Source: Allopusillimonas ginsengisoli (lineage in GTDB: Bacteria; Pseudomonadota; Gammaproteobacteria; Burkholderiales; Burkholderiaceae_B). Taken from it: DNA of 64,000 nt. Below, one piece after another: positions 23,454 through 45,041 of this stretch. Location of the stretch: assembly GCF_004153455.1 (NCBI RefSeq), contig NZ_SDQE01000012.1, forward strand, positions 62,001-126,000. Direction: 5' to 3'. Position 1 is the stretch's first letter; each line of letters begins with the position of its first letter. A model generated the notes under the pieces. It was not told where the DNA came from. It was given only the letters and a program-made list of their open reading frames with translations, and searched no databases. The translations under genes were made by a program, and so were the position numbers.

Positions 23454-23996
23454 TCAGGGAGTGACGATGGAGCGCAGCATATCAACCAGCCGCTCGGCGT
23501 GGTCGGCGTCCAGTTTGGATAAAACCTGGTGCTGGTGCGCCATGGCCTGGCCGCACAAGGGGCTGACAAGCCGGTTGCCCTTTGCCGTGAGTTTGACCAG
23601 TGTCTGGCGGCGGTCGGCGCGTGCCGTGCGCAACGTGATATACCCTTGCGCTTCGAGGCGTGGCAGCACTTTGCTCAGGGTGGGCTGCTTGGTCAGGGCC
23701 AGCCGGGCCAGTTCGCCAACGGTTTCGCCCGCGCTTTCGAAGAGGCTGGCCATAATCCGCCATTCTGTGACTGACAGCCCCGCCTGCTTTACCTTTACAT
23801 GGAACTCGGCGGAAATTCGATGGCTGGCCAGCGCCAGTACAGAGGCCAGGTAGCGGTCGACAAAGCGCGCTGGCTCGGCGAGGCTAGGCTTGTCGGTTGA
23901 CACAGCAGGCGCGTGCCCGGAAGACCGGGCGGGGAGTACGGCATCGGCATCATGGGCCGGCAGGCCCGTACGGGGGGGGTCTTCTTTGGCGATCAT
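23454..23996 (-). CDS. MarR-family transcriptional regulator of the adjacent catabolic operon
   Basis: A 180-residue winged-helix protein. The N-terminal 45 residues look disordered. The MarR fold follows: LSVTEWRIMASLFES, recognition-helix region TKQPTLSKVLPRLEAQGYI, and the wing TLRTARADRRQTLVKLTAKG. Start at 23996 because GAGGAAACC precedes that ATG; a longer frame upstream has no support. It diverges from the eleven-gene operon starting at 24288. MarR proteins of iad-type loci repress auxin degradation genes and are released by indole-3-acetate; this protein is the positional counterpart (IadR). Ligand assignment is inference. Confidence 0.85.
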   Translation of the reverse strand: MIAKEDPPRTGLPAHDADAVLPARSSGHAPAVSTDKPSLAEPARFVDRYLASVLALASHRISAEFHVKVKQAGLSVTEWRIMASLFESAGETVGELARLALTKQPTLSKVLPRLEAQGYITLRTARADRRQTLVKLTAKGNRLVSPLCGQAMAHQHQVLSKLDADHAERLVDMLRSIVTP

Positions 23997-24132
23997 GGTT
24001 TCCTCGGGTACACGCTGCCGTCCAATCTGCCATTTTACTCCGCAATATTCGTTTTCGACTAGGTTCAAAGGGCCGATGTAATGGTAATCGCTTATATCCA
24101 AACCACTGTAATATCTATTAAAAAACTTTTTT

Positions 24133-24148
24133 ATATGAATTTTCATAT
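24133..24148. promoter_or_regulatory. ATATGAA-TT-TTCATAT palindrome (candidate MarR operator)
   Basis: A 16-base inverted repeat with perfect 7-base arms lies in the divergent spacer between the MarR gene and the catabolic operon, 5 bases before the -35 of the operon promoter. Length and symmetry are typical of MarR dimer sites. Protein bound here could touch polymerase at both divergent promoters. Confidence 0.6.
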
Positions 24149-24153
24149 TTTTC

Positions 24154-24182
24154 TTGACGCTCCTTAATTTGAAGCCTAAAGT
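24154..24182 (+). promoter_or_regulatory. Candidate promoter of the catabolic operon
   Basis: TTGACG, 17 bases, TAAAGT. The -35 matches the sigma-70 consensus at five of six bases and the -10 at four of six. The start codon of the first gene is about 105 bases downstream, leaving a leader of roughly 95 bases that contains GC-rich repeats but no clear attenuator. Confidence 0.5.
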
Positions 24183-24287
24183 AAACGGAAATTGCAATGC
24201 CTGCGGCCGTCTCCGGTGGTTGCAGCGCACGCCGGTTCCGGGTGCGCTGTGCTGTCGTCGGCAAGACAGGTAGCTCAGGAGACAAAC

Positions 24288-26636
24288 ATGGCAGAACGTT
24301 CTTTCAAGAAAGAAGTGCAGCAGCTCCGCATAGGGGCCGGTGAAGAATTTCGTGGCGAAGGAATACTGGCTGTCACCAAGGGGCTGTTGCAATCCGGTGT
24401 TGGCTATGTCGCAGGCTATCAGGGTTCGCCGATCTCGCATCTGATGGATGTGTTGGCGGATGCTGAGGAGATCCTGGACGAGCTGGGCGTGCATTTCGAG
24501 GCGAGTGCATCCGAAGCCACCGCGGCGGCAACGCTGGCTGCATCTGTGATGTATCCCATACGTGGCGCGGTAACGTGGAAATCGACCGTAGGCACCAACG
24601 TGGCCTCGGATGCGCTGGCCAATCTTGCCTCGGGCGGGGTGACGGGCGGCGCGCTGGTGATCGTTGGCGAGGACTATGGCGAAGGATCATCCATCATGCA
24701 GGAGCGTACGCACGCTTTTGCCATGAAATCACAGATGTGGCTGCTCGACCCGCGTCCTAATCTCGAAAGCATGGTTAAGGCGGTCGAGGACGGATTTGAA
24801 CTGTCCGAGGCCAGCAATACGCCGGTGATTCTGCAGCTGCGCATCCGTGCCTGTCATGTGCATGGGCGATTCATCGCCAAGGACAACAAGCGTCCGCCGG
24901 TAGGCCTGGCCGATGCGATGGAAAACCCCGTGCGCGACACCAGCCGCATCGTGTTGCCGCCGGCGTCCTTCACGCATGAGCACGAGAAGATCAACGCTCG
25001 CTGGCCCGCCGCTATGGAATTCATCAGGCAGCGGCAACTGAATGAGTTTTTCGATGGTGACGAGAACGATATCGGCATCATTCTGCAGGGCGGGCTGTAC
25101 AACGGCGTCATTCGCGCATTGCAATTGCTTGGGTTGGCCGATACCTTTGGCAACAGCCGCATTCCGCTGTATGTCATGAATGTGACCTATCCCGTGATGG
25201 ATGATGAGGTGCGTGCATTCTGTGAGAACAGGAAGGCCGTCTTGCTTGTTGAAGAGGGCCAGCCCAACTATATAGAACAGAATCTGAACACCATTTTGCG
25301 TCAGGCGGGACTGGACACTGCCTTGTGCGGCAAGGACAAGCTGCCGTTGGCGGGCGAATACACCACTGCCGTGATGCGCGATGGCCTGCAGTCGTTTCTG
25401 GCGGCGCACAGGCCGGCGCTGCTGGAAAACGTAGCGCAAGCGACGGCGCGGCCAGGTGTGCGCCCGCGCATCGAAGGCATGGCGCTCGCGCCCACGGGCG
25501 ATGAGGCCATGGACATTACCGAGGCCCGGCGCCCGACGGCGCCTGTCGCGCCGCCTTTTGTCGAGGCGTCTGACGATGCGCCGGCAGGCCCTGCCGCCCC
25601 GAGCTTGGCATCCGAAACCAGGATGCAGGCGAGTCAGGCGGAGGCCGAGGTCGCGCCTGACGCCACCGCCATCGAAGAGTTGTCACAGGTTGTGCCGCCG
25701 CGTCCGGCGGGTTTCTGTACGGGGTGTCCGGAACGTCCGATTTTTGCGGCGTTGACGCTGGCCCAGGAGAAACTGGGTGAACACCATATCGCCTGTGATA
25801 TTGGCTGCCATCTGTTTTCGATTCTGCCGCCCTTTAACTTGGGCGCAACCACCATGGGCTACGGCCTTGGCGCGTCCAGCGCGGCGGCGTTCAACGTGCC
25901 TTCTTCGCGGCGCACCATCTCCATCATGGGCGATGGCGGGTTCTGGCATAACGGATTGGCGTCGGGCATAGGCAACGCTGTTTTCAACAAATACGATGGT
26001 GTCATCATCATCGTGGACAACTACTATTCTGCCGCGACGGGTGGGCAGGATATCCTTTCTTCGCGAGCCAGCAATGCGCATCGCGCGACCAATAATCCCA
26101 TCGAGGCGGCTGTGCGCGGCGTCGGGGTCAATTGGCTGCGGGTACTGGATCGAACCTACGATGTCACCAAGGCCAAAGCCACGATTGAAGAGGCGCTGAC
26201 CACGTCAGTACAGGGGCCCAAGGTCATCATTGCACAATCCGAATGCATGCTGAACCGGCAGCGTCGCGAGAAGCCGGCCTTCAACAAAGCGGTCAAGAGT
26301 GGTCAGCGTATGGTCAAGCAGCGCTTTGGCGTGGATCCGGACGTGTGTTCGGGCGACCATGCCTGTATACGCCTTTCGGGTTGTCCGTCGCTGACCATCA
26401 AGGACAGCGGGGATCCTCTCAAGGAAGACCCGGTGGCCTATGTTGACAACACTTGTGTGGGATGCGGCAACTGCGGCGAGGTGGCCGATGCGGCCGTGCT
26501 GTGCCCGTCCTTCTATCGTGCGGACATTGTTCACAACCCCAGTGGTTGGGATTTGTTCAAGGCGCGCATGCGCCAGCGTGTTATCGGATACCTTCAGTCG
26601 CGCCGTCAGGCGCGCCTGGATCAATATTCCCTGTAA
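24288..26636 (+). CDS. Indolepyruvate:ferredoxin oxidoreductase-like protein, alpha-type subunit
   Basis: A 782-residue TPP enzyme subunit, first gene of the catabolic operon. IorA-type enzymes decarboxylate aryl-pyruvates to aryl-acetyl-CoA and pass electrons to ferredoxin. The N-terminal pyrimidine-binding domain (GYVAGYQGSPISHLMDVL, EASASEATAAATLAASVM) is followed by a transketolase-like middle, an Ala/Pro-rich linker (~residues 385-470), the TPP-binding domain with MGDGGFWHNGLASG and VDNYYSAATGGQ, and a C-terminal iron-sulfur region ending CVGCGNCGEVADAAVLCPS. AGGAG precedes the ATG. In iad-type auxin loci the first two genes are of this class; their actual role there is not clear to me. 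Confidence 0.85.
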   Translation: MAERSFKKEVQQLRIGAGEEFRGEGILAVTKGLLQSGVGYVAGYQGSPISHLMDVLADAEEILDELGVHFEASASEATAAATLAASVMYPIRGAVTWKSTVGTNVASDALANLASGGVTGGALVIVGEDYGEGSSIMQERTHAFAMKSQMWLLDPRPNLESMVKAVEDGFELSEASNTPVILQLRIRACHVHGRFIAKDNKRPPVGLADAMENPVRDTSRIVLPPASFTHEHEKINARWPAAMEFIRQRQLNEFFDGDENDIGIILQGGLYNGVIRALQLLGLADTFGNSRIPLYVMNVTYPVMDDEVRAFCENRKAVLLVEEGQPNYIEQNLNTILRQAGLDTALCGKDKLPLAGEYTTAVMRDGLQSFLAAHRPALLENVAQATARPGVRPRIEGMALAPTGDEAMDITEARRPTAPVAPPFVEASDDAPAGPAAPSLASETRMQASQAEAEVAPDATAIEELSQVVPPRPAGFCTGCPERPIFAALTLAQEKLGEHHIACDIGCHLFSILPPFNLGATTMGYGLGASSAAAFNVPSSRRTISIMGDGGFWHNGLASGIGNAVFNKYDGVIIIVDNYYSAATGGQDILSSRASNAHRATNNPIEAAVRGVGVNWLRVLDRTYDVTKAKATIEEALTTSVQGPKVIIAQSECMLNRQRREKPAFNKAVKSGQRMVKQRFGVDPDVCSGDHACIRLSGCPSLTIKDSGDPLKEDPVAYVDNTCVGCGNCGEVADAAVLCPSFYRADIVHNPSGWDLFKARMRQRVIGYLQSRRQARLDQYSL

Positions 26637-26645
26637 GGCTGCGTG

Positions 26646-28244
26646 ATGACGACAGAGCAAAGTATTAGCGCGATGCGCGACGGCGCGGCCTGCGAGGCCA
26701 GCCGTTTTCAGGAAGGGATACCCATCAAGATCGCGGTGCTGGCCATGGGTGGCCAGGGCGGCGGTGTGCTGGCCGACTGGATTGTGGACATGGCCGAGCA
26801 TGCGGGATGGTGGGCGCAGACCACATCGGTGCCGGGGGTGGCGCAACGTACAGGCGCCACGATCTATTATCTGGAACTGCTGCCGGAAGCCGCGGTCAAG
26901 GCCGCCGGGCGGCCACCGGCGTTGGCCATGATGCCCACGCCCGGTGATGTGGATGTGGTATTGGCCGCCGAATTGATGGAAGGCGGGCGCGCCATTCAGC
27001 GGGGGCTGGTGACGCCGGCGCGCACGACACTGGTGTCGTCATCGCACCGCAGTTATGCGGTGAATGAGAAAGCGGCGCATGGCAATGGGATTGCCGACCC
27101 CAACAAGGTCATCGAAGCGGGCCGCCAGGCTGCGAAACGCTTTTACTGCTTCGACCTGCAGGCGGTGGCGGATCAGGCGGGTAGTGTCATCAGTGCCAGT
27201 CTGTTTGGGGCGCTGGCGGGCGCGGACGTCCTGCCTTTCGGGCGCGATGATTATGAGAACACAATACGGCGCGGCGGACTGGGCGTGGAAGCCAGCCTGC
27301 GGGCCTTTGATCTGGCCTGTGAGCAGGCGCGCCAGGCCCCGCAGTCGCCAGGACACATTGATACGACGCGTGAAATGCCGGTCGTGCCCGAGAAGGCGGC
27401 CAGCCCGCGCATGCAGGCGCTGCTGGATACCTTGCGCAACGATTTCCCTGAGCAGGCGCAGCCCATGATGCTGGCGGGGTTGCGTCGCGTACTGGAATTC
27501 CAGGATCTGCGCTATGCGCGGGAGTATCTGGATCATATGCGCGACATCCGCAAGCTGGACGCCGAATTCGGCGGGCAGGCCAAGAACTGGGCCTTGACGC
27601 AGGCGGCGGCGCGATATGTGGCCGTGGCGATGGCGTATGACGATGTCATACGCGTGGCGGATCTCAAGACCCGAGGCAGCCGTTTTAAGCGCGTGCGCGA
27701 TGAGACGAGTGCGCAGGCCGGGCAGTTGGTCTATGCCACGGAATACATGCATCCTCGTCTGGAAGAGGTCTGTGGCGCCTTGCCTGCCGCATTGGGAAGG
27801 GCGATCGAGAGCTCGCCCAGGCTGTCTGGCCTGCTCAACCGCTTCTTCCGTAAAGGCCGCTACGTGCAAAGCGGTACCTTGCATGGTTTTCTGATGCTGT
27901 ACGCATTGGCCGGCATGCGCCGCTTTCGGCGGATGACCCTGCGCCATCAAGTCGAGGCTGACAGCCTGCTTCAATGGCTCAAGCAGATATCGGATACCGT
28001 TCATCACGATTACGATCTGGCGGTGGAAGTGGTGCATTGCCGACGCTTGGTCAAGGGATACAGCGATACGCACGAGCGCGGCGAGAGCAAGTACCAGCGC
28101 TTGCGTCTGGCCGCCAGCCAGTTGCTGGGGCGCAGCGATGCGTCGCGGCAGATGAAAGTGTTGCGCGAGGCCGCCCTGGATGACAGCAAAGGCGAAAAGC
28201 TGGACACGCTGATGGAGAAAGCGCTGGCGGCGGTGTCCGCCTGA
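26646..28244 (+). CDS. Indolepyruvate oxidoreductase-like protein, beta-type subunit
   Basis: 532 residues, 9 bases after the alpha-type gene, so the two form one enzyme. The N-terminal gamma domain of pyruvate:ferredoxin oxidoreductases is clear: IAVLAMGGQGGGVLADWIVD, then SVPGVAQRTGATIYY. The C-terminal 300 residues form the extra domain seen in long IorB-like proteins of proteobacteria (YAREYLDHMRDIRKLD, then GSRFKRVRDE). I start at the ATG 26646; a GTG directly before it is equally in frame. No ferredoxin gene is adjacent, so the electron acceptor is unknown. Confidence 0.85.
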   Translation: MTTEQSISAMRDGAACEASRFQEGIPIKIAVLAMGGQGGGVLADWIVDMAEHAGWWAQTTSVPGVAQRTGATIYYLELLPEAAVKAAGRPPALAMMPTPGDVDVVLAAELMEGGRAIQRGLVTPARTTLVSSSHRSYAVNEKAAHGNGIADPNKVIEAGRQAAKRFYCFDLQAVADQAGSVISASLFGALAGADVLPFGRDDYENTIRRGGLGVEASLRAFDLACEQARQAPQSPGHIDTTREMPVVPEKAASPRMQALLDTLRNDFPEQAQPMMLAGLRRVLEFQDLRYAREYLDHMRDIRKLDAEFGGQAKNWALTQAAARYVAVAMAYDDVIRVADLKTRGSRFKRVRDETSAQAGQLVYATEYMHPRLEEVCGALPAALGRAIESSPRLSGLLNRFFRKGRYVQSGTLHGFLMLYALAGMRRFRRMTLRHQVEADSLLQWLKQISDTVHHDYDLAVEVVHCRRLVKGYSDTHERGESKYQRLRLAASQLLGRSDASRQMKVLREAALDDSKGEKLDTLMEKALAAVSA

Positions 28245-28300
28245 CAGGCATGGCGATGCGAAAGCCAGCCAATACGATATGAAAAGAGACGAGGCAAACC

Positions 28301-29278
28301 GTGAGCAAGCTGAAACTTACCGTCACTGATATCCGCAGCGAAACGCAGATTGTTCGTGCCATCACGCTGAAGGCGAGCGACGGGGAACCGTTGCCGGCCT
28401 TTACGCCAGGCGCCCATCTGAAGGTCAGCATTCCCGGCCAGAAGGCGCCTCGCTGTTATTCGCTGGTCTGTCTGGACGATGATCCGGCCGCTTTTGAAGC
28501 GCCCGCCTGCTATCACCTGGGCGTGCGACTGGAAGATCCGAGTACCGGCGGATCGCGTCATATGCACAGCCTGTCGGTGGGCGATGAGCTCGAGGTGGAC
28601 GGGCCGCGCAACGATTTTGAACTGCACGAAGCGCAGATCAACGAGCACGCGGTTGTGCTGGTGGCCGGGGGGATTGGCATTACGCCTATTGCATCCATGG
28701 CCGCCAGTCTGAAGCGGGCTGGCCGTGCATTTGTGCTGCATTACTATGGTCGCAGCCGCGCCCAGATGGCTTTTCTGGATGTGCTGGCGGCGCAGCATGG
28801 CGAGGCCGTGCACATGCATGCCGATGATGAGGAAGCCACACAACTGCCACTCAATGATTTGCTGGACAGCGTAGACCAGAAACAGCACTTGTATGTATGC
28901 GGCCCCAAGGGGCTGATAGATGCTGTGGTGGAGCAATCCCATGGCAGGCAATGGCCGCACGCTCATGTGCATTTTGAGCTGTTCTCCACGCCTGCGCCGC
29001 AGGAGGGCGATGCGGGCTTCGAGGTTGAGCTCAGGCAGTCTGGCCAGGTGTTTCATATTCCGCCAGACAAGACCATTCTCGAAGTGCTCGAAGAGGCCGG
29101 CTGCGACCCCTTGTTTGATTGCCGGCGCGGTGAGTGCGGGGTATGCCAGGTGGTTGTGCTCGAAGGCAGGCCTGACCACCGCGACTATTACTTGTCCGAA
29201 GCGGAGCGCGACGCCAACGATGTCATGCAGATATGCGTATCGCGCAGCCATTCTGACCGTCTTGTGCTTGACCTTTGA
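28301..29278 (+). CDS. iadC: Rieske oxygenase reductase component, PDR/VanB type
   Basis: A 325-residue NAD(P)H-dependent reductase expected to feed electrons to the oxygenase encoded next. It has an FMN-binding barrel (RCYSLVCLDDD), an NAD domain (VAGGIGITPIASMAASLKR, YVCGPKGLIDAVV) and a C-terminal plant-type [2Fe-2S] domain with CRRGECGVC followed about 29 residues on by ICVSR. Because the ferredoxin is fused, no separate ferredoxin is needed. GTG start with a GAGG upstream. The symbol follows the third gene of Variovorax-type iad loci (reductase before the oxygenase subunits) and is an assignment by order. Confidence 0.85.
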   Translation: MSKLKLTVTDIRSETQIVRAITLKASDGEPLPAFTPGAHLKVSIPGQKAPRCYSLVCLDDDPAAFEAPACYHLGVRLEDPSTGGSRHMHSLSVGDELEVDGPRNDFELHEAQINEHAVVLVAGGIGITPIASMAASLKRAGRAFVLHYYGRSRAQMAFLDVLAAQHGEAVHMHADDEEATQLPLNDLLDSVDQKQHLYVCGPKGLIDAVVEQSHGRQWPHAHVHFELFSTPAPQEGDAGFEVELRQSGQVFHIPPDKTILEVLEEAGCDPLFDCRRGECGVCQVVVLEGRPDHRDYYLSEAERDANDVMQICVSRSHSDRLVLDL

Positions 29279-29292
29279 CCCACAGGTGCATC

Positions 29293-30615
29293 ATGAACTA
29301 TCGCAATAATCCCGTTGCCGTGGCCAATCTGGTGCGGCCCACCGAAGTCCACAGAGATCTATTCATCGATGATGAGCTGTTCGAGCTCGAGATGGAACAT
29401 CTTTTCGCCAACACCTGGGTGTACGTTGGCCATGAGAGTCAGGTGCCCAATGTGGGTGATTACTTCACGACGACAGTGGGCGATCAGCCTGTTGTGCTGG
29501 TCCGGCACACAGACAAATCCATACGGGTGCTGCACAATCGCTGTCCTCACAAGGGCGTGCAGGTGGCTGCGGGCGCCTGCGGCAATACGGGCAAGTTTTT
29601 TCGCTGCCCTTATCATGCCTGGACGTTCAAGACAGATGGCAAGCTGCTCTCTATTCCGCTCAAAAAAGGATACGACCCAGAGGTGCTCCAGCAGTGCGAG
29701 GCAAGCCAGGGCATGGCTGCGGTGGAGAGCGTGCGCGAGTATCGTGGTTTCGTGTTCTGTCGCCTGAATCCCGAAGGCGAATCGTTCGAGGATTTTTTTG
29801 GTGAATCGCTGTCGACCATAGACAATATGGTGGATCGTGCGCCGGAAGGCCGACTCGAAGTCGCGGGCGGCGTGCTGCGTTACCTGCATGACTGCAACTG
29901 GAAGATGCTGGTGGACAACCAGACGGATACCTGTCACCCGATGGTGGCGCACGAGTCATCGGCGGGCACGGCGGTAAAGGTATGGGAAGAGGCCCCGGAG
30001 GGCACGCCCAAGCCCATGGCGGTTGAACAGTTTGCGCCGTTCATTTCCCCCTATGAGTTCTTCGAGGGCATGGGCATCAGGGTTTGGAAGAACGGCCACG
30101 GCCATACGGGAGTGAGCAATTCCATCCACGCGGCTTATTCACAAGTGCCCGGCTACATGGAAGCCATGGAGGCAGCCTATGGTCCGGAACGCGCACAAGA
30201 GATTCTGGGCGAAGTCAGGCATAACACCACCTACTTTCCCAACATCATGGTCAAGGGGCCGATCCAGACGCTGCGCATCTTCAAGCCGCTGGCTGCCAAC
30301 AAGACGCTGGTGGAGTCCTGGACCTTTCGCCTGGTTGGCGCGCCCGACAAGCTGCTGGAGCGCACGCTGATGTACAACCGGCTTATCAATGCGCCCACCT
30401 CTGTTGTGGGTCATGACGATCACGAAGTGTATGAGCGGTCGCAACGCGGCCTGCACAGCCGTGGACGGGCATGGGTCAACGTGGCGCGATTGTATGAACC
30501 AGATGAAGCTGAGCGCGAGAACGAAGTCGTCAACGGCACCAGTGAATGGCAGATGCGCAATCAGTACCAGGCCTGGGCCCGCTACATGACCGCCACGATG
30601 AAGGAGCAGGCATGA
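29293..30615 (+). CDS. iadD: Aromatic-ring-hydroxylating (Rieske) dioxygenase, large subunit
   Basis: The 440-residue catalytic subunit. The Rieske centre is Cys84-x-His86 (CPHKG) and Cys105-x2-His108 (CPYHAW). The mononuclear iron site is in DNQTDTCHPMVAH, giving Asp212, His215 and His220, with the third ligand Asp in the C-terminal half. Large subunits of this group add O2 to a bicyclic or substituted aromatic ring; in iad loci the enzyme acts on indole-3-acetate to give 2-oxindole-3-acetate. That substrate is inferred from gene order. The start codon ATG 29293 follows the reductase stop codon by 14 bases, and the gene overlaps the small-subunit gene by four bases. Confidence 0.88.
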   Translation: MNYRNNPVAVANLVRPTEVHRDLFIDDELFELEMEHLFANTWVYVGHESQVPNVGDYFTTTVGDQPVVLVRHTDKSIRVLHNRCPHKGVQVAAGACGNTGKFFRCPYHAWTFKTDGKLLSIPLKKGYDPEVLQQCEASQGMAAVESVREYRGFVFCRLNPEGESFEDFFGESLSTIDNMVDRAPEGRLEVAGGVLRYLHDCNWKMLVDNQTDTCHPMVAHESSAGTAVKVWEEAPEGTPKPMAVEQFAPFISPYEFFEGMGIRVWKNGHGHTGVSNSIHAAYSQVPGYMEAMEAAYGPERAQEILGEVRHNTTYFPNIMVKGPIQTLRIFKPLAANKTLVESWTFRLVGAPDKLLERTLMYNRLINAPTSVVGHDDHEVYERSQRGLHSRGRAWVNVARLYEPDEAERENEVVNGTSEWQMRNQYQAWARYMTATMKEQA

Positions 30616-31106
30616 CCGCTATCATGGATCAGGATTTGATCGACTTCGTATACGCCGAAGCGCGCATGCTTGATGAACAGCGCTTCGAGGATTGGCTGGC
30701 ACTGTTCACCGAAGACGGTTATTACTGGATGCCGCTTGCGCATGGGCAGACCGATCCGGTGCTCGAAGGCTCGCTGATGTACGAAGACAAACTGCTGCTG
30801 CGCGTGCGGATCGAACGCCTGGCGGGGCAGCGTACCTACTCGCAACAGCCTATCAGCCGCAGCCATCATTTGCTGCAGCAGCCGACGGTGGAAGCCGGTC
30901 ACGCGTGGCACAATCCGGAACAAGGCCAATATGCGGTGCGGGCCGCTTTCCATTATGTTGAAACACGCATGGATCAGCAGACGCTCTATGCGGGATGGGC
31001 CACGTTTGAGCTGCTGGTGGTGGACGGGGGGTTGCGTATCCGCCAGAAGCGCGTGGATCTGGTCAATTGCGATGCCGCGCTGCGCAGCATTCAGCTATTC
31101 ATGTAG
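30612..31106 (+). CDS. iadE: Aromatic-ring-hydroxylating dioxygenase, small subunit
   Basis: 164 residues of the NTF2-like beta subunit that builds the alpha3beta3 oxygenase. Family segments: FVYAEARMLDEQRFEDWLALF, DGYYWMPL, then RSHHLLQQP and a C-terminal RIRQKRVDLVNCDAAL. Its ATG overlaps the large-subunit stop codon (ATGA), so translation is coupled, giving balanced subunits. Confidence 0.88.
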   Translation: MTAIMDQDLIDFVYAEARMLDEQRFEDWLALFTEDGYYWMPLAHGQTDPVLEGSLMYEDKLLLRVRIERLAGQRTYSQQPISRSHHLLQQPTVEAGHAWHNPEQGQYAVRAAFHYVETRMDQQTLYAGWATFELLVVDGGLRIRQKRVDLVNCDAALRSIQLFM

Positions 31107-31117
31107 AGGGCGGAAAC

Positions 31118-35147: not shown

Positions 35148-35198
35148 CTCGGTAAAACACGCCGGTCCCTACCCGGCACGCATACTACAGGAGAGACA

Positions 35199-35984: not shown

Positions 35985-35996
35985 GGAATGACAGGC

Positions 35997-36725: not shown

Positions 36726-36762
36726 GTTGCCATCCATAAAACCACACCAACGGAGACAAACC

Positions 36763-37914
36763 ATGCTGTTCAGAACCTTAGCTTTATCCGCCGCGTTGTT
36801 TGCCGTCCTTGGCACAGCGCCCGCCAGCGCCCAGGTCAAGGTGGGCGTCGTCACTTCTGCCACGGGGCCCACCGCCCTGATAGGCATTCCGCAGAAGAAC
36901 ACCGTTGCGCTGCTGCCAAAGAAGATCGGCGATCTTACGGTGGAGTACATTTCTTTGGACGATGCCAGTGATCCGACGCAATCGGTCACGAATTTCAAAA
37001 AGCTGATTTCAGAAGAAAAAGTCGATGCCTTGATTGGCCCTTCGGGTTCACCCAACGCCATGGGTGTCATCCAGTTTGCGGCGGAATCGGGCACCCCCAT
37101 GCTGGCGCCCGTCGGCACAGCGTCGGTTGTGCTGCCCATGACGCCCGACAAGAAGTGGGTATTCAAGACCACGCAGAACGATGACATTATCGCCAAGGCG
37201 CTGGTTGGACACATGGCCAAGCACGGCATCAAAACGGCCGCCTTCATCGGCCTGAACGACGCCTATGGCGAGAACTGGCTCAAGGTTTTAACCGGGCTGG
37301 CCAAAGAGCACAATATCGAGATCGTGGCGGTGGAGCGCTATCAGCGTTCCGACAGCTCAGTGACGGGGCAGGCACTCAAGGTGTTTGCGGCCAATCCTGA
37401 TGCCGTGTTGATTGCTGGCACGGGTTCGGCAGCGGTGCTGCCCGAAACAACGCTGGCCAAGCAGGGCTACAAGGGCAAGTATTACCAGACGCACGGCGCG
37501 GCCCTGCCGGCCTTTCTGAAACTGGGCGGCAAGGATGTCGAGGGTACGATTCTTGCGGCAAGCCTGATGCTGGTGCTGCCCGAGATCGACGACTCGAATC
37601 CGTCCAAGAAGGTGGCCGAAGACTATATTGCCCGTTACACCAAGCTGTATGGCGAAAAGCCGGCCACCTTCGGCGCCAACGTGTACGACGCGGGCCTGCT
37701 GCTTGAGCAAGCGATCCCGGAGGCCGCCAAGGCGGCTAAACCAGGCACCAAGGAGTTTCGCAGTGCGCTGCGCGATGCCCTGGAAAAAACGCATGAGCTG
37801 GTGGCGACGCAGGGCGTGTACAACATGTCTGCCGACGACCACAGTGGCTTCGATGATCGCGGGCGTGAGCTGATCACCGTGAAAGACGGCGAATGGCGCT
37901 TGATCAAAGAATAG
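36763..37914 (+). CDS. ABC transporter substrate-binding protein, LivK-like
   Basis: A 383-residue periplasmic binding protein with a signal peptide ending in APASAQ. The Leu/Ile/Val-type fold is visible (VKVGVVTSATGPTALIG, DASDPTQSVTNFKKLI, ALIGPSGS, GLNDAYGENWLKVL). Such proteins of aromatic catabolic operons often bind phenyl-compounds. It is the last gene of the operon and no permease or ATPase genes follow, so it must borrow a transporter encoded elsewhere. CGGAGA precedes the ATG. Its 3' end overlaps the convergent AraC gene by 11 bases. Confidence 0.87.
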   Translation: MLFRTLALSAALFAVLGTAPASAQVKVGVVTSATGPTALIGIPQKNTVALLPKKIGDLTVEYISLDDASDPTQSVTNFKKLISEEKVDALIGPSGSPNAMGVIQFAAESGTPMLAPVGTASVVLPMTPDKKWVFKTTQNDDIIAKALVGHMAKHGIKTAAFIGLNDAYGENWLKVLTGLAKEHNIEIVAVERYQRSDSSVTGQALKVFAANPDAVLIAGTGSAAVLPETTLAKQGYKGKYYQTHGAALPAFLKLGGKDVEGTILAASLMLVLPEIDDSNPSKKVAEDYIARYTKLYGEKPATFGANVYDAGLLLEQAIPEAAKAAKPGTKEFRSALRDALEKTHELVATQGVYNMSADDHSGFDDRGRELITVKDGEWRLIKE

Positions 37915-38866
37915 ACGCTTGCTGCTGACGCCGCCATTCGGTGGGTGAAACCCCGAAGCGGCGGCGGAAAGCATGGCTGAAAGCGGCTGAATCCGAGAAG
38001 CCGTGCTGGTACGCCAGCTCGCTGATCTGGCGGGTGAGCGTTGTGTCTGCCAGCAGGCTGCGGCAGCGCTCCAGGCGCGCGCCCTGGATATAGTCGGCTG
38101 GCGTCTGGCCCTGATTTTCGAACAGCTTGTAGAGGTAGCGGCGCGAAACGCGGAAATGCGCTGCGATGCCCGATACAGACAGTGCCGGATCGTGCAGGTT
38201 TTCGTCGATGTGCTGGCAAATAGACCGGAACTGCGCGTGCCGGACTTCATCCAGTCCCGACATGCTGTTTGCGCCACTTTGCTCGCAGACATTCAGGCCT
38301 ATCATCTGCAAGATGGAATGCGCAATATCGCGCGTGGCGGCGGCCGATAGTCCGGGGTTTTCCGAGAGCGCCAGGCGCAGGGTGTGCATGGCAATGCGCG
38401 CGCTGCCGTGCCGAGCGCTGAAGGCACGCGCCACAGCGCGCTGAAGATAAGGCTCCCACACAGACATTTGCGCAGATGAAATCTGCAGCACGAGGAAATG
38501 GGCGTCCTGATCCACGGCAACTTCATACGGCCTGGCGGTATCGTACAGGCCCCATTCGCCTGGGTTCAGAATGGCCGAACGCCCTTCCTGAACAATGGTG
38601 CTGCGCCCGGACAGCTGCAGCGTCGCCTTGTAGACGCTTTGCTCGGCGCGGCTGGCCAGACTGCGCGTGCGGCATACGCGCTGCGCCGACGTGATCAGCT
38701 CGGTGACATGCAGGCTGCCCAGCGTGTCGCTGGCAGCCGTGTTCAGGAAAGGCCCGCCTGTGCTGGCACGGACTTCCAGTGGAACAAAATATTCACATAC
38801 GCCATCACGCCATGGACCATGGCTGTTGAAATGGCGAGGTGGCGTGCGCAATAGCATGGGCGTCAT
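37904..38866 (-). CDS. AraC-family regulator with AraC_binding_2 domain (FeaR/NphR-like)
   Basis: 320 residues. The N-terminal ligand domain (GPFLNTAASDTLGSLHVTEL, then SRAEQSVYKATLQLSG, then NPGEWGLYDTARPYEV) resembles that of FeaR, which senses aromatic aldehydes in phenylethylamine breakdown. The C-terminal AraC domain has two HTH units (DPALSVSGIAAHFRVSRRYL and RQISELAYQHGFSDSAAFSHA). It sits between the oxygenase operon and the aromatic amine dehydrogenase operon and is read in the direction of the latter, so activation of the amine operon is the likeliest role. Confidence 0.85.
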   Translation of the reverse strand: MTPMLLRTPPRHFNSHGPWRDGVCEYFVPLEVRASTGGPFLNTAASDTLGSLHVTELITSAQRVCRTRSLASRAEQSVYKATLQLSGRSTIVQEGRSAILNPGEWGLYDTARPYEVAVDQDAHFLVLQISSAQMSVWEPYLQRAVARAFSARHGSARIAMHTLRLALSENPGLSAAATRDIAHSILQMIGLNVCEQSGANSMSGLDEVRHAQFRSICQHIDENLHDPALSVSGIAAHFRVSRRYLYKLFENQGQTPADYIQGARLERCRSLLADTTLTRQISELAYQHGFSDSAAFSHAFRRRFGVSPTEWRRQQQASIL

Positions 38867-39004
38867 ACACCTGATGCCTTAAAAAATGCGCTTGCGTGCA
38901 TACGCCGGAGAGGCCCGGTGCGCAGGCGCTTGTACAACCTTTATACCTAAATCAAGCTGGGCAGGCCATGAGTAGAAACCTTTAGATGTGTGCAGAGGCG
39001 TCGC

Positions 39005-39042
39005 CCGTCGCCATGTGGTCGCCGGGACCAGCCCCGCGACGG
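39005..39042. terminator. Hairpin at the end of the amine dehydrogenase operon
   Basis: Outer arms CCGTCGC and GCGACGG enclose an inner TGGTC/GACCA stem, 9 bases beyond the stop codon of the cytochrome c gene. No T-run follows on the minus strand, so it may stabilise the mRNA end rather than terminate alone. Confidence 0.45.
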
Positions 39043-39050
39043 CGATGGCC

Positions 39051-39611
39051 TCACTGCTCTGGGTTGTTGCCAAAGGTATAAGGCGCCAGGGTGTGTCCTT
39101 GCTCCGCCAGTGTACTGGCGAGGGCTTTTCGAACCGTGGTCACATCATCGAAACGGTAAGGTCTGGCCGCACCGATCTCGTTGGCGGTAAACGGTCTGAA
39201 ATCAGGCCCGGCCTGTTCAGGGCTATACGTCATGACTGCCCAGTTCAGCACGTTGGCCAATTCCGCATTGCTCAACTGGGATTGTGCTGCGCCTGGTACC
39301 CGTATCATGTAGTCGCGGCCTGCCGGCAGGCTGGCCAGCAGGCCGATGGAGTTGCGAAAACTGGGCACGCCACGCTGCGCGACGCCGTTGCCGTCGTAGC
39401 GATGGCATCCGGCGCATTGCAGCATATAGTCTTTATAGGCGGCCGTGGAAAGCGTCTGCGCGCTGCCCGATCCGCAGGCAAGGGTGCCCACGATGACAAA
39501 CGGTGCGACGGCAATCCGTCGCACTGCCGCCAGGGCGCGCCCCACCGTACCGAATCGTGCCGGTACAGCCCTGCCCGGGTGGGCAAGGCTGCGGCCTTGG
39601 CGCGTAATCAT
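39051..39611 (-). CDS. Periplasmic monohaem cytochrome c of the aromatic amine dehydrogenase operon
   Basis: 186 residues with a long basic N-terminus and export segment, then a class I cytochrome c domain: CAGCH near residue 66 and probable Met ligand in NWAVMTYSPEQAGP. In Alcaligenes faecalis a small periplasmic c cytochrome gene directly follows the light-chain gene, as here. It may take electrons from the quinone cofactor, alone or after a blue copper protein; no azurin or amicyanin gene is present in the window. GGGGAG precedes the ATG. Confidence 0.83.
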   Translation of the reverse strand: MITRQGRSLAHPGRAVPARFGTVGRALAAVRRIAVAPFVIVGTLACGSGSAQTLSTAAYKDYMLQCAGCHRYDGNGVAQRGVPSFRNSIGLLASLPAGRDYMIRVPGAAQSQLSNAELANVLNWAVMTYSPEQAGPDFRPFTANEIGAARPYRFDDVTTVRKALASTLAEQGHTLAPYTFGNNPEQ

Positions 39612-39627
39612 TTCAGGATTCTCCCCC

Positions 39628-40146
39628 TTAATTCTTGGCGAGCCCGACCACGATCGAGGTTGTGCAGTGGAAGGTGGTGTTTTCGTTGGCCATGCACCAG
39701 TTCACATCGTTATGCAGGAAGAACTCATACCCGGGCCGCTCGCGCGTCTGCGATGAACACAGACAGCGGTTGCATGCTGTCTTGCCGCAGCAGTCGTGAT
39801 AGCTCACGAGATAGTCCTTGCCGTCCTTGGGGTTGTGGCAGGTGCCGACCCAGGAAATCGGTGAGGGTGTCGTCCCTGGCGGACACGTAGTGGGCGTGCC
39901 GCCGCAGCAGGAGCACAAGAAGCCATCCACCGCGCAATAGCGCCAATAGTCGCAGGAACTCAGTTCCTCGTCCGTGGCATCGTCCAGGCCGGGTGATTTG
40001 CCGGCGGCGCGGGCCACGGGCAAGACAGGCATGAGAAAGGCCGATCCGACCAGCGCTTTGCTGATGGAGCACAGTACACTGCGCCGCGATGATTTGTGCG
40101 CGATGTTGCGCGCCATGCTTTCGCCAAATTTATCCAACCAACGCAT
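39628..40146 (-). CDS. aauA: Aralkylamine (aromatic amine) dehydrogenase light chain, TTQ-bearing
   Basis: A 172-residue precursor. The leader has twin arginines (SSRRSVLCS) and a hydrophobic stretch ending PVARA, as in all TTQ light chains. The cofactor precursor tryptophans are Trp99 (ISWVGTC) and Trp150 (NDVNWC); catalytic residues Asp118 (YHDCCG) and Thr162 are present. All four are offset by exactly 10 from the numbers published for the A. faecalis enzyme. The mature part has 14 Cys for disulfides. I start at 40146 because AAGGAG precedes this ATG; it overlaps aauD by 17 bases. The enzyme deaminates phenylethylamine, tyramine and tryptamine in the periplasm. Confidence 0.95.
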   Translation of the reverse strand: MRWLDKFGESMARNIAHKSSRRSVLCSISKALVGSAFLMPVLPVARAAGKSPGLDDATDEELSSCDYWRYCAVDGFLCSCCGGTPTTCPPGTTPSPISWVGTCHNPKDGKDYLVSYHDCCGKTACNRCLCSSQTRERPGYEFFLHNDVNWCMANENTTFHCTTSIVVGLAKN

Positions 40147-40768
40147 TGACGTTCTCCTTGCGCGAAACTTGAACTTCGTTAAGGCCATTATTGGTCAGGT
40201 ATTCCTGGGCGGAAGCCACGCCCAGCTCTTTCGCGGTAAACAGGCTTTCTAGCTGCTCGCGCGAATTGATCAAGCCCTTGGCACGGATAATGCCGTTTTC
40301 ATCGATGAGCACGGCATAGGGCAGCTTGCTGATCTGAAAACCCATACCCAGACTGGTGGAGAGCAGATAGGGAAACTGTTCCAGCCCGGCCTGGCGATAG
40401 AACGCCAGATGCTCGGGCATCTCGCCATCGCTGGCCAGTACGATATCCAGCCATTTCTTTTCGGTCGCGGCCACGGACTTGAGTATGGGCAGCAGCTTCT
40501 TGCAGACAGGGCATGTCGGCGACAGAAAGAACAGCAACTGGCTGCGCGATCCGGCAAGGCCTATCTTCTGGGGGCGACCCAGCATGTCGGCCAGCTCAAA
40601 GGCTGGCGCGGCCTCGCCCACGGCGGGGCCCTTGTCCATGGTCAGCGCACCCATGGGGGCGACGCGCTCATACAGCACGCCGATCTGGCGCGACAGTGCC
40701 AGCACCACCAGCACCAGGCTCAGCACGACGAGCCACAGGACAATGTTGGAAATCATCAAGGCATTCAT
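40130..40768 (-). CDS. aauD: MauD/AauD-type thioredoxin-like maturation protein
   Basis: 212 residues with one N-terminal membrane helix (NIVLWLVVLSLVLVVLAL) and a periplasmic thioredoxin fold carrying CPVC (FFLSPTCPVCKKLLP) near residue 87. MauD-type proteins are needed for the many disulfides of the TTQ light chain, made by the next gene, which it overlaps. GGAG precedes the ATG. Confidence 0.92.
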   Translation of the reverse strand: MNALMISNIVLWLVVLSLVLVVLALSRQIGVLYERVAPMGALTMDKGPAVGEAAPAFELADMLGRPQKIGLAGSRSQLLFFLSPTCPVCKKLLPILKSVAATEKKWLDIVLASDGEMPEHLAFYRQAGLEQFPYLLSTSLGMGFQISKLPYAVLIDENGIIRAKGLINSREQLESLFTAKELGVASAQEYLTNNGLNEVQVSRKENVNALVG

Positions 40769-40777
40769 GGCGTCTCC

Positions 40778-41314
40778 TTATGTTTTTTGAATTCGTTGGT
40801 GTGAATCAATCAATTGATTCAGGCAGAAATACAGGCCCAGCACGGCCAGTGTGGTGCCGAAGAAGGTCAGCGCATCCACCCAGCTCAGGCTGCGCGCGGA
40901 GGCATAGTGCGCGAGCAACGCGGGTACGGCCAGCGCCAGCAACAGGCTGTTGCGCAGCACCAGCCACCAGGACAGCCCGCCGGTTTTCTCCGTGAAGCCG
41001 CCGCAGCCGCAATCGATGTCGCGGCGTCCGCGCAGCAGGTTGGCCACAATGCCGGCGCTGGCCAAGAGCAGCACCGCCATGGCAAGGGCCGCGCCACCGG
41101 CGCGTGTGGTCGGCACTAACAGCATCATGCCGCTGCACAGTTCGGCGGCGATAAACAGCGCTGCAAAAGGCCGTACCCAATTGGCGGGCAACAGGGCATA
41201 GCCCGCTGTGGCATTTTCAAACCGCGCAAAGCTGGCCAGCTTGCCGATCGCGCCCGACAGGAGTATGCCTGCCAGGGCCGCCGAGCCGGCGTAGATCAGG
41301 ATGGGATCTATCAT
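40778..41314 (-). CDS. aauE: MauE/AauE-type membrane protein
   Basis: 178 residues with four to five membrane helices of the MauE/DoxX family ([20 protein letters not shown], then [21 protein letters not shown]). The short loop [15 protein letters not shown] contains a Cys pair that may pass electrons to AauD. It overlaps the heavy-chain gene by four bases, and aauD follows after 9 bases. Mutants of mauE in methylotrophs fail to make stable light chain. Confidence 0.9.
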
Positions 41315-42501
41315 TGCCCGTCTCCGTTATAGGGCTGCGGTTCAACCTGCAGCGCCGCTTCGCCGGCGCCTTCTATGGTTCGCAGGTACTTGGGCTGGGC
41401 GGCGCTGATGTCGTAGATGTTCACATTGCCGCCGTCCAGTGTCAGCAACCGTGGGCTCGGTCCCTGCGCTACAGACATGGACAGGCCGTCGCGGCCGGGC
41501 TCACGCGCAATCCGTTTATTGGTTTTCAGATCGTACACCCAGATTTCAGCCGCGGGATTCTTGTGAGAGCCTTCCTTGCCATCGGGATGCATGAAGACAT
41601 ACAGGCGCTGGTTGGCGCGATCAATGTCGATCACGTTATAGCCGCCTGGCACCCAGCCCTGCGCCTTGTCTTCGTCGTTGAGCAATGACCACACAGGCTC
41701 AAAAGTGATCTCTTCGCCGTCCAGGTTAGCGGTGTAGACGTTGCCATAGAACGATACAAAATAGGCTTTGTCCCGAGTAAGTCCGGGGGCGATGAAAATG
41801 GGGTCCTCCTGCACCGGGAACATTGCTTTACTGCGATGCTGGTTTGCCACTTTTCCCTGCTCATCCAGGTCAATGGACAGCAGCGCGCCGTCGCCGCAAA
41901 TGGTCATGAAACTGTGCGGCTTGTTGGGCAGGGGGATGACGCTCCAGCAGCCTGCTGTCGAGGTGATCTCTCCCGCGAACTCGCCTTTGTCGATATTCAC
42001 GACAGAGATCGAGGTGGCTGGCGTGGCGTTCTGCAGCACAATGAATTTTCCGTCTGTCGTCTGACGGAAGATCCCGCGATAGTTGAGCGCCTGCGCGCGC
42101 TTGGGCGGAATCGATATCTCCTTTTTGAACGTCAGCGCCTGCGCATCCCATACTTCGACAACATCGGTGCGCTTGCCGCGTGTCACGCGCTCGTGATAGG
42201 TGGTCATCACATAGATGTCCTTGCCATCGTGCGAGAGCTGCATGTGCCCGTTGTAGCTGGTGGGTATCATGCCCAGAAACTTGCCGGTTGCGCCGTCGAA
42301 GATGTTCAGGCGGCTTTCGGTCAGGTGCTGGAACACGGAGTCCATCACGTAAACGCGCTGTGACGCGTCCGCCGGGAGCGTGTGCCCGCCAGTGAGTTCC
42401 TCCATGGGTTTTTGCTGGGCTGTCGCCGGCAGCGCCATGGCCAGCAGCGCGATGGCCAGCAGGCCATGCAGTCGGGACCGGGTGAGCGATAAAGTGATCA
42501 T
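41311..42501 (-). CDS. aauB: Aralkylamine dehydrogenase heavy chain
   Basis: A 396-residue periplasmic beta-propeller subunit with a signal peptide ending LPATAQQ. It has the heavy-chain start [22 protein letters not shown] and seven-bladed repeat units such as [20 protein letters not shown] and [20 protein letters not shown], ending in a [19 protein letters not shown] stretch. Two heavy and two light chains form the enzyme. AGGAG is 9 bases before the ATG at 42501. Confidence 0.94.
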
Positions 42502-42532
42502 GAATCATGTCTCCTGGCTGGTGGATCCGGTT

Positions 42533-43414
42533 TCAGAAGATGTAGGCGTAACGCAATTGCACGCCGCGCATCTTGGGTCCGTTCCTGACATCGAGGTCGT
42601 GGATATACTGCAATTGAATCTGGTTGGCGTCATTCAGCTGATGGGTGATCTCCGCTGCCAGTTGATGGCTGCGCTGGCTGGATAGCACGGTATCGCCGTT
42701 GATCTTCTCCTTGCCGCCGGTTTCGTATCGATAGCGCATGCCTACGTAGGTGTCGGGCGTGATGTTGGTCGAGGCCAGGAACATCAGCCGCATCGACGGA
42801 GATTTCTTCAATCGCTGGCCATAATAGTTGTTGTTGTCGCCATAGAACTCGAACTCCGCGACACCTTCCAGAAAGGTGGATTCGCCTATTCCCTTCACGA
42901 AGGCAAAATCCTGTATTGTTGTCCATCGATTATTGCCAGGCGACACGTCTGCGTGCGAGCCGTGGTAGCGACCCGTAGGGAACGTAATGAAGGGTTCCCA
43001 TGCGAACCAGGTGCGGGTCTCTTCGTTGTTGTAGAACCAGAACGCAGCGCCGGCCTGGATGTCGCCCATGCCGGTCAGCCTGTCGTGCGGCACGCCTGGT
43101 ACTTTGGCGGTGGTGCGAAAGGCAGGAGCGATCAGCTCGTACTGGACGGTGACATTGCCGATCTGGCGAAAAGCCATGGGGCGCAGCACCAATGCCTGAA
43201 CGTCTATACGTGGTCCGCCGTCAATCCGGTGGCCGCGATCATAGAAGCCGTGGCTGCCCAGGGCCGCAAAATAGCTCGCAAAAATATTGGTGCCGGGCGG
43301 CGCGGGTATCCAGTCGCGCGCGCTTGGATCACCGGCCTGGGCCTGCCCTGCCAGGCCCAGACAGGCAGCCAGTGCCAACAGGGCGGTGCAGAGCGCTCCA
43401 GTGCTTTTTTTCAT
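42533..43414 (-). CDS. Outer-membrane beta-barrel protein, phenol MetA-deg / transporter family
   Basis: 293 residues with a signal peptide (LALAACLGLAGQAQA). Alternating amphipathic strands, a GMGDIQAGAAFWFY segment, and a C-terminal aromatic residue (YAYIF) mark an outer-membrane barrel of the type encoded near aromatic catabolic genes. It may be a porin for aromatic amines. It lies directly before aauB; the A. faecalis aau locus also has an unassigned gene (orf-1) in this place, but I cannot confirm homology. GAGGAG precedes the ATG. Confidence 0.75.
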   Translation of the reverse strand: MKKSTGALCTALLALAACLGLAGQAQAGDPSARDWIPAPPGTNIFASYFAALGSHGFYDRGHRIDGGPRIDVQALVLRPMAFRQIGNVTVQYELIAPAFRTTAKVPGVPHDRLTGMGDIQAGAAFWFYNNEETRTWFAWEPFITFPTGRYHGSHADVSPGNNRWTTIQDFAFVKGIGESTFLEGVAEFEFYGDNNNYYGQRLKKSPSMRLMFLASTNITPDTYVGMRYRYETGGKEKINGDTVLSSQRSHQLAAEITHQLNDANQIQLQYIHDLDVRNGPKMRGVQLRYAYIF

Positions 43415-43464
43415 ACAGTCTCCTCATTATTTTGTTGTTGTCGACGCGTCATGCGCGCAGCCGA

Positions 43465-44967
43465 TCAGTGTGCGGCGGGGTAAGCCATGCAGACGGATTT
43501 TTTCTCCAGATACATATCAATTGCGGCGTGGCCGTGTTCGCGTCCGATGCCGGATTGCTTGTAGCCGCCGAAGGGCATGTGAGGGTCGAGCATGTTGTGC
43601 GTATTGACCCAGACAGTGCCCGCCCGGATGCGTGGCACAAGCCGGTTGACGCGTGTCAGGTCGTTGCTCCAGATGCTGGCGCCCAACCCGAACTGGGTGT
43701 CGTTGGCGCATGCAATCGCATCCTCTTCCGTATCAAAGGCGCCGGCGACCACGACGGGGCCAAAAATCTCTTCGCGGCTGATGCGGGCGCCCGCGGGCGC
43801 ATGGGCGAACACGGTAGGCCGTACAAAATAGCCCTCGCCTTCGTCCGCCGCGCCGCCTGCCAGCATGCGCGCGCCTTCTTGCTTGCCAATGGCGATATAG
43901 TCCAGCACCCGTTTTTGATGGCGGGCCGAAATCATCGGGCCTATTTGCGTGTCCGGATCCAGCCCGGAGCCCAGCTTCATGCCCGACGCGATGTCTGCGA
44001 GTCCTGCGACCACGCGATCGTAGATGCCTTTCTGAACAAACAGCCGCGAACCGGCCGTGCAGACCTGGCCCTGGTTGAAGAAGATGGCGCCGGCCGCGCC
44101 TTGTATGGCCAGATCGATATCGCAATCGTCCAGGATGATGACGGGGGACTTCCCGCCCAGCTCCAGCGACACGCGTTTCATGTCGTCCACGGCCTGGCGG
44201 CCAATCAGCTTGCCGACTTCCGTCGATCCGGTGAAAGCGATCTTGTCGACATCAGGATGGGCGACCAACGCCGCGCCGGTTACCTCGCCCCGCCCAGTAA
44301 TGACGTTGACGACCCCAGGCGGAAAACCGGCCTCAAGCGCCAGCTCAGCCAGGCGAATGGCCGTCAGCGGTGTTTCCTCCGCAGGTTTGAGCACGACGGT
44401 GCAGCCAGTGGCGACAGCAGGCGCAATTTTCCATATAGCCATAAGCAGCGGAAAATTCCACGGCACGATGGCTGCCACGACGCCTACGGGCTCCGGGCGG
44501 GTATAGGCGTGATAGTTCACGCCCGGCGGAAAAGGAATGGACACATTCAAGGTTTCGCCGGAAATCTTGGTGGCCCATCCCGCCATATAGCGCAACCATT
44601 GGGCGCCGGCGCCAACTTCCAGGCCTTGCGATAAGGCCAATAGTTTGCCGTTGTTCAATGTCTCGAGCCGTGCCAGCTCATCGCCATGCTGTTCGACCAG
44701 ATCCGCCAGCCGGAGCAGCAGCCTTTCTCTGGCGACGGGGAGCATATCGCGCCACGCCGGGGCTTCAAAAGCATGCCGTGCAGCCTTGACTGCTTCGTTT
44801 ACCTGCCGAGGGCCGGCCTCCAGCTGATGCGCAATCACCACGCCGCGAGCGGGGTCATAAACGGGAATGGCGTCCCCGTCTCCTTCGGTCCAGGGCTTGC
44901 CGCCGATAATCATGTGTTCTCGTATGGCGGCCAGCTCCGGGCGGTCGTGATCCAATGCAACTGACAT
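43465..44967 (-). CDS. NAD-dependent aldehyde dehydrogenase, phenylacetaldehyde dehydrogenase-like
   Basis: 500 residues with full ALDH signatures: PWNFPLLMAIWK, KPAEETPLTA, FTGSTEVGK, general base Glu in LELGGKSP and nucleophilic Cys in NQGQVCTAGSR. It is the first gene of the aau operon and would oxidise the arylacetaldehyde made by the amine dehydrogenase (phenylacetaldehyde, or indole-3-acetaldehyde from tryptamine) to the arylacetate. The aldehyde forms in the periplasm and must enter the cytosol, since no signal peptide is present. GGGAGGAG precedes the ATG. Confidence 0.88.
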   Translation of the reverse strand: MSVALDHDRPELAAIREHMIIGGKPWTEGDGDAIPVYDPARGVVIAHQLEAGPRQVNEAVKAARHAFEAPAWRDMLPVARERLLLRLADLVEQHGDELARLETLNNGKLLALSQGLEVGAGAQWLRYMAGWATKISGETLNVSIPFPPGVNYHAYTRPEPVGVVAAIVPWNFPLLMAIWKIAPAVATGCTVVLKPAEETPLTAIRLAELALEAGFPPGVVNVITGRGEVTGAALVAHPDVDKIAFTGSTEVGKLIGRQAVDDMKRVSLELGGKSPVIILDDCDIDLAIQGAAGAIFFNQGQVCTAGSRLFVQKGIYDRVVAGLADIASGMKLGSGLDPDTQIGPMISARHQKRVLDYIAIGKQEGARMLAGGAADEGEGYFVRPTVFAHAPAGARISREEIFGPVVVAGAFDTEEDAIACANDTQFGLGASIWSNDLTRVNRLVPRIRAGTVWVNTHNMLDPHMPFGGYKQSGIGREHGHAAIDMYLEKKSVCMAYPAAH

Positions 44968-45041
44968 GTGTCCGCTCCTCCCGATAGTAATGGAAGCAGC
45001 ATAGCAACGGGGTGCGGCCGGGTATTGTTGTGTTGTGCACT

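Follow-up and report, generated by a model that had tools for sequence, protein, structure and literature searches.

The 64,000-nucleotide stretch of DNA analysed here (the window) comprises bases 62001-126000 of a contig in the sequenced genome of Allopusillimonas ginsengisoli (G000; 4.52 Mb, 33 contigs). It carries an operon of the indole-3-acetate degradation (iad) type on the plus strand, facing a convergent aromatic amine dehydrogenase (aau) cassette on the minus strand. Eleven genes, iadA-K, make up the plus operon, which extends from the ATG codon of iadA at 24288 to 37914. The minus operon runs from 44967 down to 37904 and encodes, in its own 5′ to 3′ direction, an aldehyde dehydrogenase (ALDH), an outer-membrane channel-like protein, AauB, AauE, AauD, AauA, a cytochrome c and a FeaR-like regulator. 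The ends of iadK and the feaR-like gene converge with an overlap of 11 bp. Every gene named in a preliminary description of this DNA is present as an intact open reading frame; the MarR gene, which had been counted in the plus operon, does not belong to it because it is a minus-strand gene that diverges from iadA. The features are given below, where the starts of iadE, iadF, iadG, iadH and the cytochrome c gene are approximate or those of the longest frame (SDR, short-chain dehydrogenase/reductase; AADH, aromatic amine dehydrogenase; TTQ, tryptophan tryptophylquinone).

23454..23996, minus strand: MarR-family regulator (IadR-like); best solved matches 7kki/7kfo (MarR_73).
24135..24146, no strand: palindrome ATGAATTTTCAT, putative IadR operator; only match in the window.
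24288..26636, plus strand: iadA, indolepyruvate oxidoreductase alpha-like; TIGR03336, 288 bits, under cut-off.
26643..28244, plus strand: iadB, indolepyruvate oxidoreductase beta-like; NF006179, above cut-off.
28301..29278, plus strand: iadC, oxygenase reductase; best solved match 7ylr, 307 bits (next 197).
29275..30615, plus strand: iadD, Rieske oxygenase large subunit; best solved matches 9o71 and 7yls/8h2t.
30546..31106, plus strand: iadE, oxygenase small subunit (start approximate); best solved match 7yls chain A, 159 bits (next 51).
31067..32743, plus strand: iadF, CoA ligase (start approximate); acyl-CoA ligase families.
32695..33915, plus strand: iadG, thiolase-like (start approximate); thiolase families.
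33990..35147, plus strand: iadH, DUF35 (ChsH2-like)-SDR fusion (start approximate); zf-ChsH2, OB_ChsH2_C, adh_short.
35199..35984, plus strand: iadI, cyclase/formamidase-like; PF04199.
35988..36725, plus strand: iadJ, SDR dehydrogenase; SDR families.
36727..37914, plus strand: iadK, ATP-binding cassette (ABC) solute-binding protein; PF13458, nearest solved matches 3sg0/4dqd.
37904..38866, minus strand: FeaR-like AraC-family regulator; NF007243 FeaR, 158 bits, cut-off 199.
39051..39611, minus strand: cytochrome c (start approximate); PF00034, 21.0 bits, cut-off 21.3.
39628..40188, minus strand: aauA, AADH light chain (TTQ); best solved match 2agl, 250 bits.
40130..40768, minus strand: aauD (MauD-like); TIGR02661, above cut-off.
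40778..41314, minus strand: aauE (MauE-like); PF07291, above cut-off.
41311..42501, minus strand: aauB, AADH heavy chain; best solved match 2h3x, 588 bits.
42533..43414, minus strand: outer-membrane channel-like protein; PF13557 Phenol_MetA_deg.
43465..44967, minus strand: arylacetaldehyde dehydrogenase (ALDH); NF045735 StyD, 831 bits, cut-off 850.
45026..45061, minus strand: tandem repeat, putative FeaR-type activator site before the ALDH gene; only match in the window.

Judged by gene identity, the plus operon is a complete iad operon. As had been proposed, the gene order is that of Variovorax, with all nine genes from iadC to iadK in matching order (PMC12633357), and in Variovorax the iadC-K2 region converts indole-3-acetate to anthranilate (PMC12633357). 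For IadD, IadC, IadE and the MarR regulator, the closest solved proteins are those of Variovorax; IadD scores 624 bits against 9o71 and 620 bits against 7yls/8h2t, with the next family at 164 bits. The locus shares with that of Variovorax paradoxus CL014/CL14 the gene order iadC-K, the divergent MarR gene before iadA, the IadD pocket and the carboxylate contacts of IadR, and anthranilate is the product in Variovorax (PMC9613470, PMC10374108, PMC12633357). It differs in having an aau cassette at the 3′-end of iad, in a binding protein whose nearest relative is not IadK2, and in a glutamine in place of Leu211 of IadD.

These last two differences could be explained by an iad-like oxygenase that has shifted to another substrate, in which case the plus operon would have no part in auxin degradation. 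Gln211 is found in all 18 rows compared, the window and G035 of genus g2 among them, and IadK is closer to other binders (3sg0/4dqd, 353 bits) than to IadK2 (7ylt), which ranks seventh among its solved matches at 261 bits; a second binding protein of the related genome G203 likewise has a nearest solved match other than IadK2. However, 13 of the 14 metal and pocket residues listed for Variovorax IadD (PMC10374108) are kept in the window. Genus g2, in which Gln211 also occurs, is Achromobacter-like (all 11 g2 loci compared share 81-86% DNA identity with named Achromobacter loci), and degradation of indole-3-acetate (IAA) has been shown in Achromobacter (PMC11630574). In an alignment read by eye for the ligand residues listed for MarR_73 (PMC9613470), the IadR-like regulator retains the carboxylate contacts S28, H32 and R46 as well as Y15 and W45, and carries the substitutions A18 to S and V65 to L. 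A substrate shift therefore seems highly improbable, and the iad gene set very probably encodes the destruction of the plant hormone auxin.

The minus operon was described at the outset as encoding an aromatic amine dehydrogenase together with an arylacetaldehyde dehydrogenase, and its eight intact genes bear this out. By sequence comparison, AauA and AauB belong to the AADH branch and not to the methylamine dehydrogenase branch: AauB reaches 588 bits against 2h3x and 122 bits or less against methylamine dehydrogenases, while AauA reaches 250 bits against 2agl compared with 143 bits. In an alignment read by eye, AauA has the two tryptophans that form TTQ (109 and 160 in AADH light-chain numbering) as well as the catalytic residues Asp128 and Thr172. 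None of the eight genes of the cassette is MauG-like, the rest of the genome not having been searched for TTQ maturation genes. The cytochrome c gene is kept in all 21 related cassettes.

The solved AADH structures (2agl, 2h3x and others) are from Alcaligenes faecalis, whose aau genes are like those of the window in encoding light and heavy chains, AauD and AauE, and whose known substrates are tryptamine and phenylethylamine. The statement that tryptamine is a known AADH substrate is correct for the solved enzyme, for which phenylethylamines are substrates as well (PMC4949571, PMC4030948), and by analogy AauAB of the window may also oxidise tryptamine. Escherichia coli tynA-feaB is a FeaR-controlled system for phenylethylamine and tyramine oxidation that employs a copper amine oxidase. 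The window resembles it in combining a FeaR-like activator with an arylacetaldehyde dehydrogenase, but uses a TTQ dehydrogenase instead of a copper enzyme.

Each operon appears to have its own control element. The palindrome ATGAAWWTTCAT occurs once per locus, before iadA, in 15 related iad loci and the window (13 loci and the window by alignment, L067 and L068 by position only). None of the aau cassettes fetched has it, nor does either of the two iad clusters of g4/g27 type for which the MarR-iadA gap was fetched (L087, L088). Elsewhere in the window genome there are three copies; in two cases the palindrome begins with the start codon of a reading frame, in the third it is internal to one, and no iad gene is involved. 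Common control of both operons by IadR was considered and rejected, as these copies lie at non-iad frames and none at the cassette. The ALDH gene is instead preceded by the tandem repeat TGC-N8-ACA-N8-TGCAC-N6-nCA, present in 20 of 22 cassettes, window included, a count that is partly so by construction since the pattern was drawn from 17 of the counted rows. L071 and L072 depart from it, and it is absent from the five distant AADH loci L078-L082. IadR may bind the palindrome and the FeaR-like protein the tandem repeat. With a separate element for each operon, any coupling must pass through a metabolite.

A family-level survey of 268 genomes yielded 56 with an AADH heavy chain of the cassette kind, 97 with an IadD ortholog and 53 with both. 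The two sets are adjacent in four of these 53 (G000, G075, G211 and G203), which represent three genera and a single site, with the pair about 12 kb apart, convergent, and in the shared setting rpoH-marR-iad-aau-clsB-aspS. Because the same convergent arrangement recurs in three further genomes of the family, the pairing is more than chance. The eight-gene cassette forms the same unit in all 21 related carriers whose surroundings were fetched. A single origin of the pairing is likely from the gene trees, though not established: the four linked genes group in the AauB tree, but weakly (45/82), and three changes are required on the IadD tree. In both G075 and G211, a zinc alcohol dehydrogenase gene and an esterase-family gene lie between clsB and the ALDH gene (L049, 4525-6507; L051, 5102-7103), an arrangement seen in neither the window nor G203. 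In genus g27 (L070 and L073; G178 and G182), the cassette is near aspS, on its other side, and separate from iad.

Genome G200, from the same genus as G203, retains the setting and iad while the cassette is missing. Between its two iadK genes (L055, ~4815-5022), there are remnants of 46 bp resembling the feaR 3′-end (87%), of 93 bp resembling the ALDH gene interior (80%), and of ~240 bp resembling the region upstream of ALDH (75%), for which the E-values at the DNA level were calculated over a small search space and a wider protein search at 1e-3 showed the ALDH piece alone. The third remnant carries the cassette promoter element, the tandem repeat described above. Going by these remnants, the cassette was most probably present at one time and was then lost by deletion. 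None of the other 13 iad loci searched (L056-L068) contains a cassette remnant.

The preliminary description had called for a search of genomes for co-occurrence of the two operons. Within the family, 53 of the 56 cassette genomes have iad, compared with 44 of 212 genomes without the cassette (p 3e-25, in a test that, like those below, ignores shared ancestry). When genus g2 is left out, the figures are 17 of 20 and 37 of 205 (p 2e-9). The phenylacetate (paa) pathway, scored by PaaA, is likewise present in 53 of 56 cassette genomes and in 79 of 212 others. Grouped by both acid pathways, the cassette is found in 53 of the 78 genomes that have both iad and paa, in none of the 19 with iad only and in none of the 54 with paa only, a split that fits a generalist feeder kept where both acids can be used. 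The order-level survey (349 genomes) contained 16 genomes with an AADH-like gene, eight with iad and six with both (p 9e-8), the AADH-like gene being present in six of eight iad genomes and in 10 of 341 others. Three of the six double carriers belong to another family, have heavy chains about 40% alike, and carry the genes on separate contigs. Genus g12 (L069, L074 and L075; G118, G112 and G111) has the cassette with neither iad nor paa.

From gene identities, metal and pocket residues, promoter elements, neighbourhood, the scar and co-occurrence, all of which are read from sequence, we infer a tryptamine flux, an order of induction, cell compartments and protein binding at the elements as follows. 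In the periplasm, the TTQ dehydrogenase AauAB would oxidise amines such as tryptamine, phenylethylamine and tyramine and pass the electrons to the cassette cytochrome c. ALDH would convert the aldehydes to arylacetic acids, so that tryptamine yields indole-3-acetate. Indole-3-acetate would free the operator from IadR and open iad, after which IadCDE, then IadJ and IadF-I, would carry it to anthranilate. Phenylacetate derived from phenylethylamine would enter the paa pathway, which is encoded outside this locus. The two operons would be linked by a shared metabolite and not by a shared operator, with the cassette acting as a generalist feeder of two acid pathways. As predicted from the genes, the route from tryptamine through indole-3-acetate to anthranilate is complete on paper, and use of both gene sets as a single route is probable. 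We consider it fairly likely that the locus as a whole is an iad operon with a FeaR-regulated generalist aau cassette at its 3′-end, joined through metabolites into this route.

Several results weigh against such coupling or lend weight to an alternative in which the cassette serves only phenylethylamine and tyramine, leading to the phenylacetate and hydroxyphenylacetate routes, while its place beside iad is an inherited insertion accident with little tryptamine flux. The ALDH is nearest to the phenylacetaldehyde dehydrogenase StyD and the regulator nearest to FeaR, yet both fall below the naming cut-offs. The paa pathway is present in the window genome, outside the iad/aau locus, as well as in the 53 cassette genomes counted above. 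In 49 of the 53 genomes with both sets the two are not adjacent, with 19 having them on one contig at least 300 kb apart and 30 on separate contigs; the Alcaligenes-like genus g4 has both, but at least 300 kb apart in the eight of its nine genomes in which both are on one contig. No operator common to both operons was found, the palindrome occurring only before iadA and the tandem repeat only before ALDH, and G200 lost its cassette while iad stayed. The neglect of ancestry in the tests also counts against the coupling, as do the association by genus, which is 6 of 7 against 15 of 36 with a p of only 0.046, the three cassette carriers among 117 genomes with neither iad nor paa, and a binding protein that has closer solved matches than IadK2. 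A cassette confined to phenylethylamine and tyramine nevertheless sits poorly with its absence from all genomes that have paa but lack iad, with the oxidation of tryptamine by known AADH (PMC4949571, PMC4030948), and with a pair that stays adjacent across three genera. We regard this alternative as possible but doubtful. An argument for the tryptamine role from an absence of paa was rejected, since paa is present in the genome.

The earlier suggestion of a self-contained plant-amine and auxin sink lacks support as worded, as does the idea of a dedicated one. A regulator gene and a promoter element of its own go with the cassette, which has no iadA palindrome, and the affinity to StyD, the presence of paa, the prevalence of non-adjacent pairs and the loss in G200 all speak against dedicated pairing. 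The cassette probably serves phenylethylamine and feeds phenylacetate too, so that a dedicated auxin sink is not established. A pairing in one locus is seen at the single site in three genera and not in the other 49 genomes. For these three genera, a stronger proposal is that aau and iad work as one amine-to-acid unit, with auxin as a transient that opens iad and with anthranilate passing to a distant CoA-ligase/hydroxylase cluster of the 2-aminobenzoyl-CoA type; we offer it tentatively. If true, such bacteria would remove the auxin precursor as well as auxin.

With regard to the fate of anthranilate, no match above the cut-off to an AndAc/AntA-type anthranilate dioxygenase was found in any of the 11 genomes tested. 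Full-length AndAc matches below the cut-off of 750 bits occur in G075 (367 bits), G211 (386), G054 (435) and G035 (385), and G054 has an AntA-like match of 446 bits (cut-off 672). An anthranilate dioxygenase as the next step in the window genome is unsupported, as only partial AndAc matches of 114 bits or less were found there. A PRK08255-type hydroxylase/reductase, which NCBIfam names salicylyl-CoA hydroxylase, scores above the cut-off in all 11 genomes. In the six genomes for which loci outside iad were fetched (G000, G035, G075, G118, G203 and G211), its neighbours are genes for an SDR and an enoyl-CoA hydratase and one that comes close to the benzoate-CoA-ligase family (352 bits in G000, cut-off 375), a combination like that of aerobic 2-aminobenzoyl-CoA degradation.

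In G054 (g4) and G182 (g27), the PRK08255 hydroxylase and a thioesterase are located inside the iad cluster. The g4/g27 iad clusters, which have the coordinates given below, also contain a gentisate/5-aminosalicylate-type dioxygenase (below cut-offs), a fumarylacetoacetate (FAA) hydrolase and a nitrilase-fold gene, while L064 and L066 showed no iadH.

L087, 9330-17974, and L064, 856-12195: iad cluster of G054.
L088, 2899-19597: iad cluster of G182.
L066, 763-11862: iad cluster of G174.

It is possible that these clusters have a built-in ring-cleavage branch for anthranilate. The hydroxylase/dioxygenase set inside the clusters of G054 and G182 is evidence that iad yields anthranilate or the corresponding CoA ester in these genomes.

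Auxin-degrading bacteria have been studied as modulators of root growth, with IAA taken as the input. In the main text of four iad papers, the word "tryptamine" is absent (PMC9613470, PMC10374108, PMC11630574, PMC12633357), and word searches of open-licence papers listed none whose title links an amine dehydrogenase or tryptamine to the breakdown of auxin or to iad. An Alcaligenes genome paper mentions tryptamine once, as a known intermediate of IAA biosynthesis, and "amine dehydrogenase" is absent from it (PMC10530903). New here are the co-occurrence of cassette and iad together with the rarity of their adjacency, the loss scar in G200, the tie of the cassette to the joint presence of iad and paa, and the distinct putative control elements of the operons. 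If an amine feeder is routine, such strains may capture tryptamine too and form auxin as a transient, a point relevant to strain choice. The counts predict a cassette in genomes that have both acid sinks, and sequential induction; G200, which lost the cassette, and the carrier G203 offer a natural comparison within one genus.

On the rpoH side of the locus, a sodium/proton exchanger of 893 residues that includes a cyclic-nucleotide-binding domain is encoded on the minus strand at 19395-22076 of the window, where its gene adjoins that of the rpoH-like sigma factor (22382-23272).

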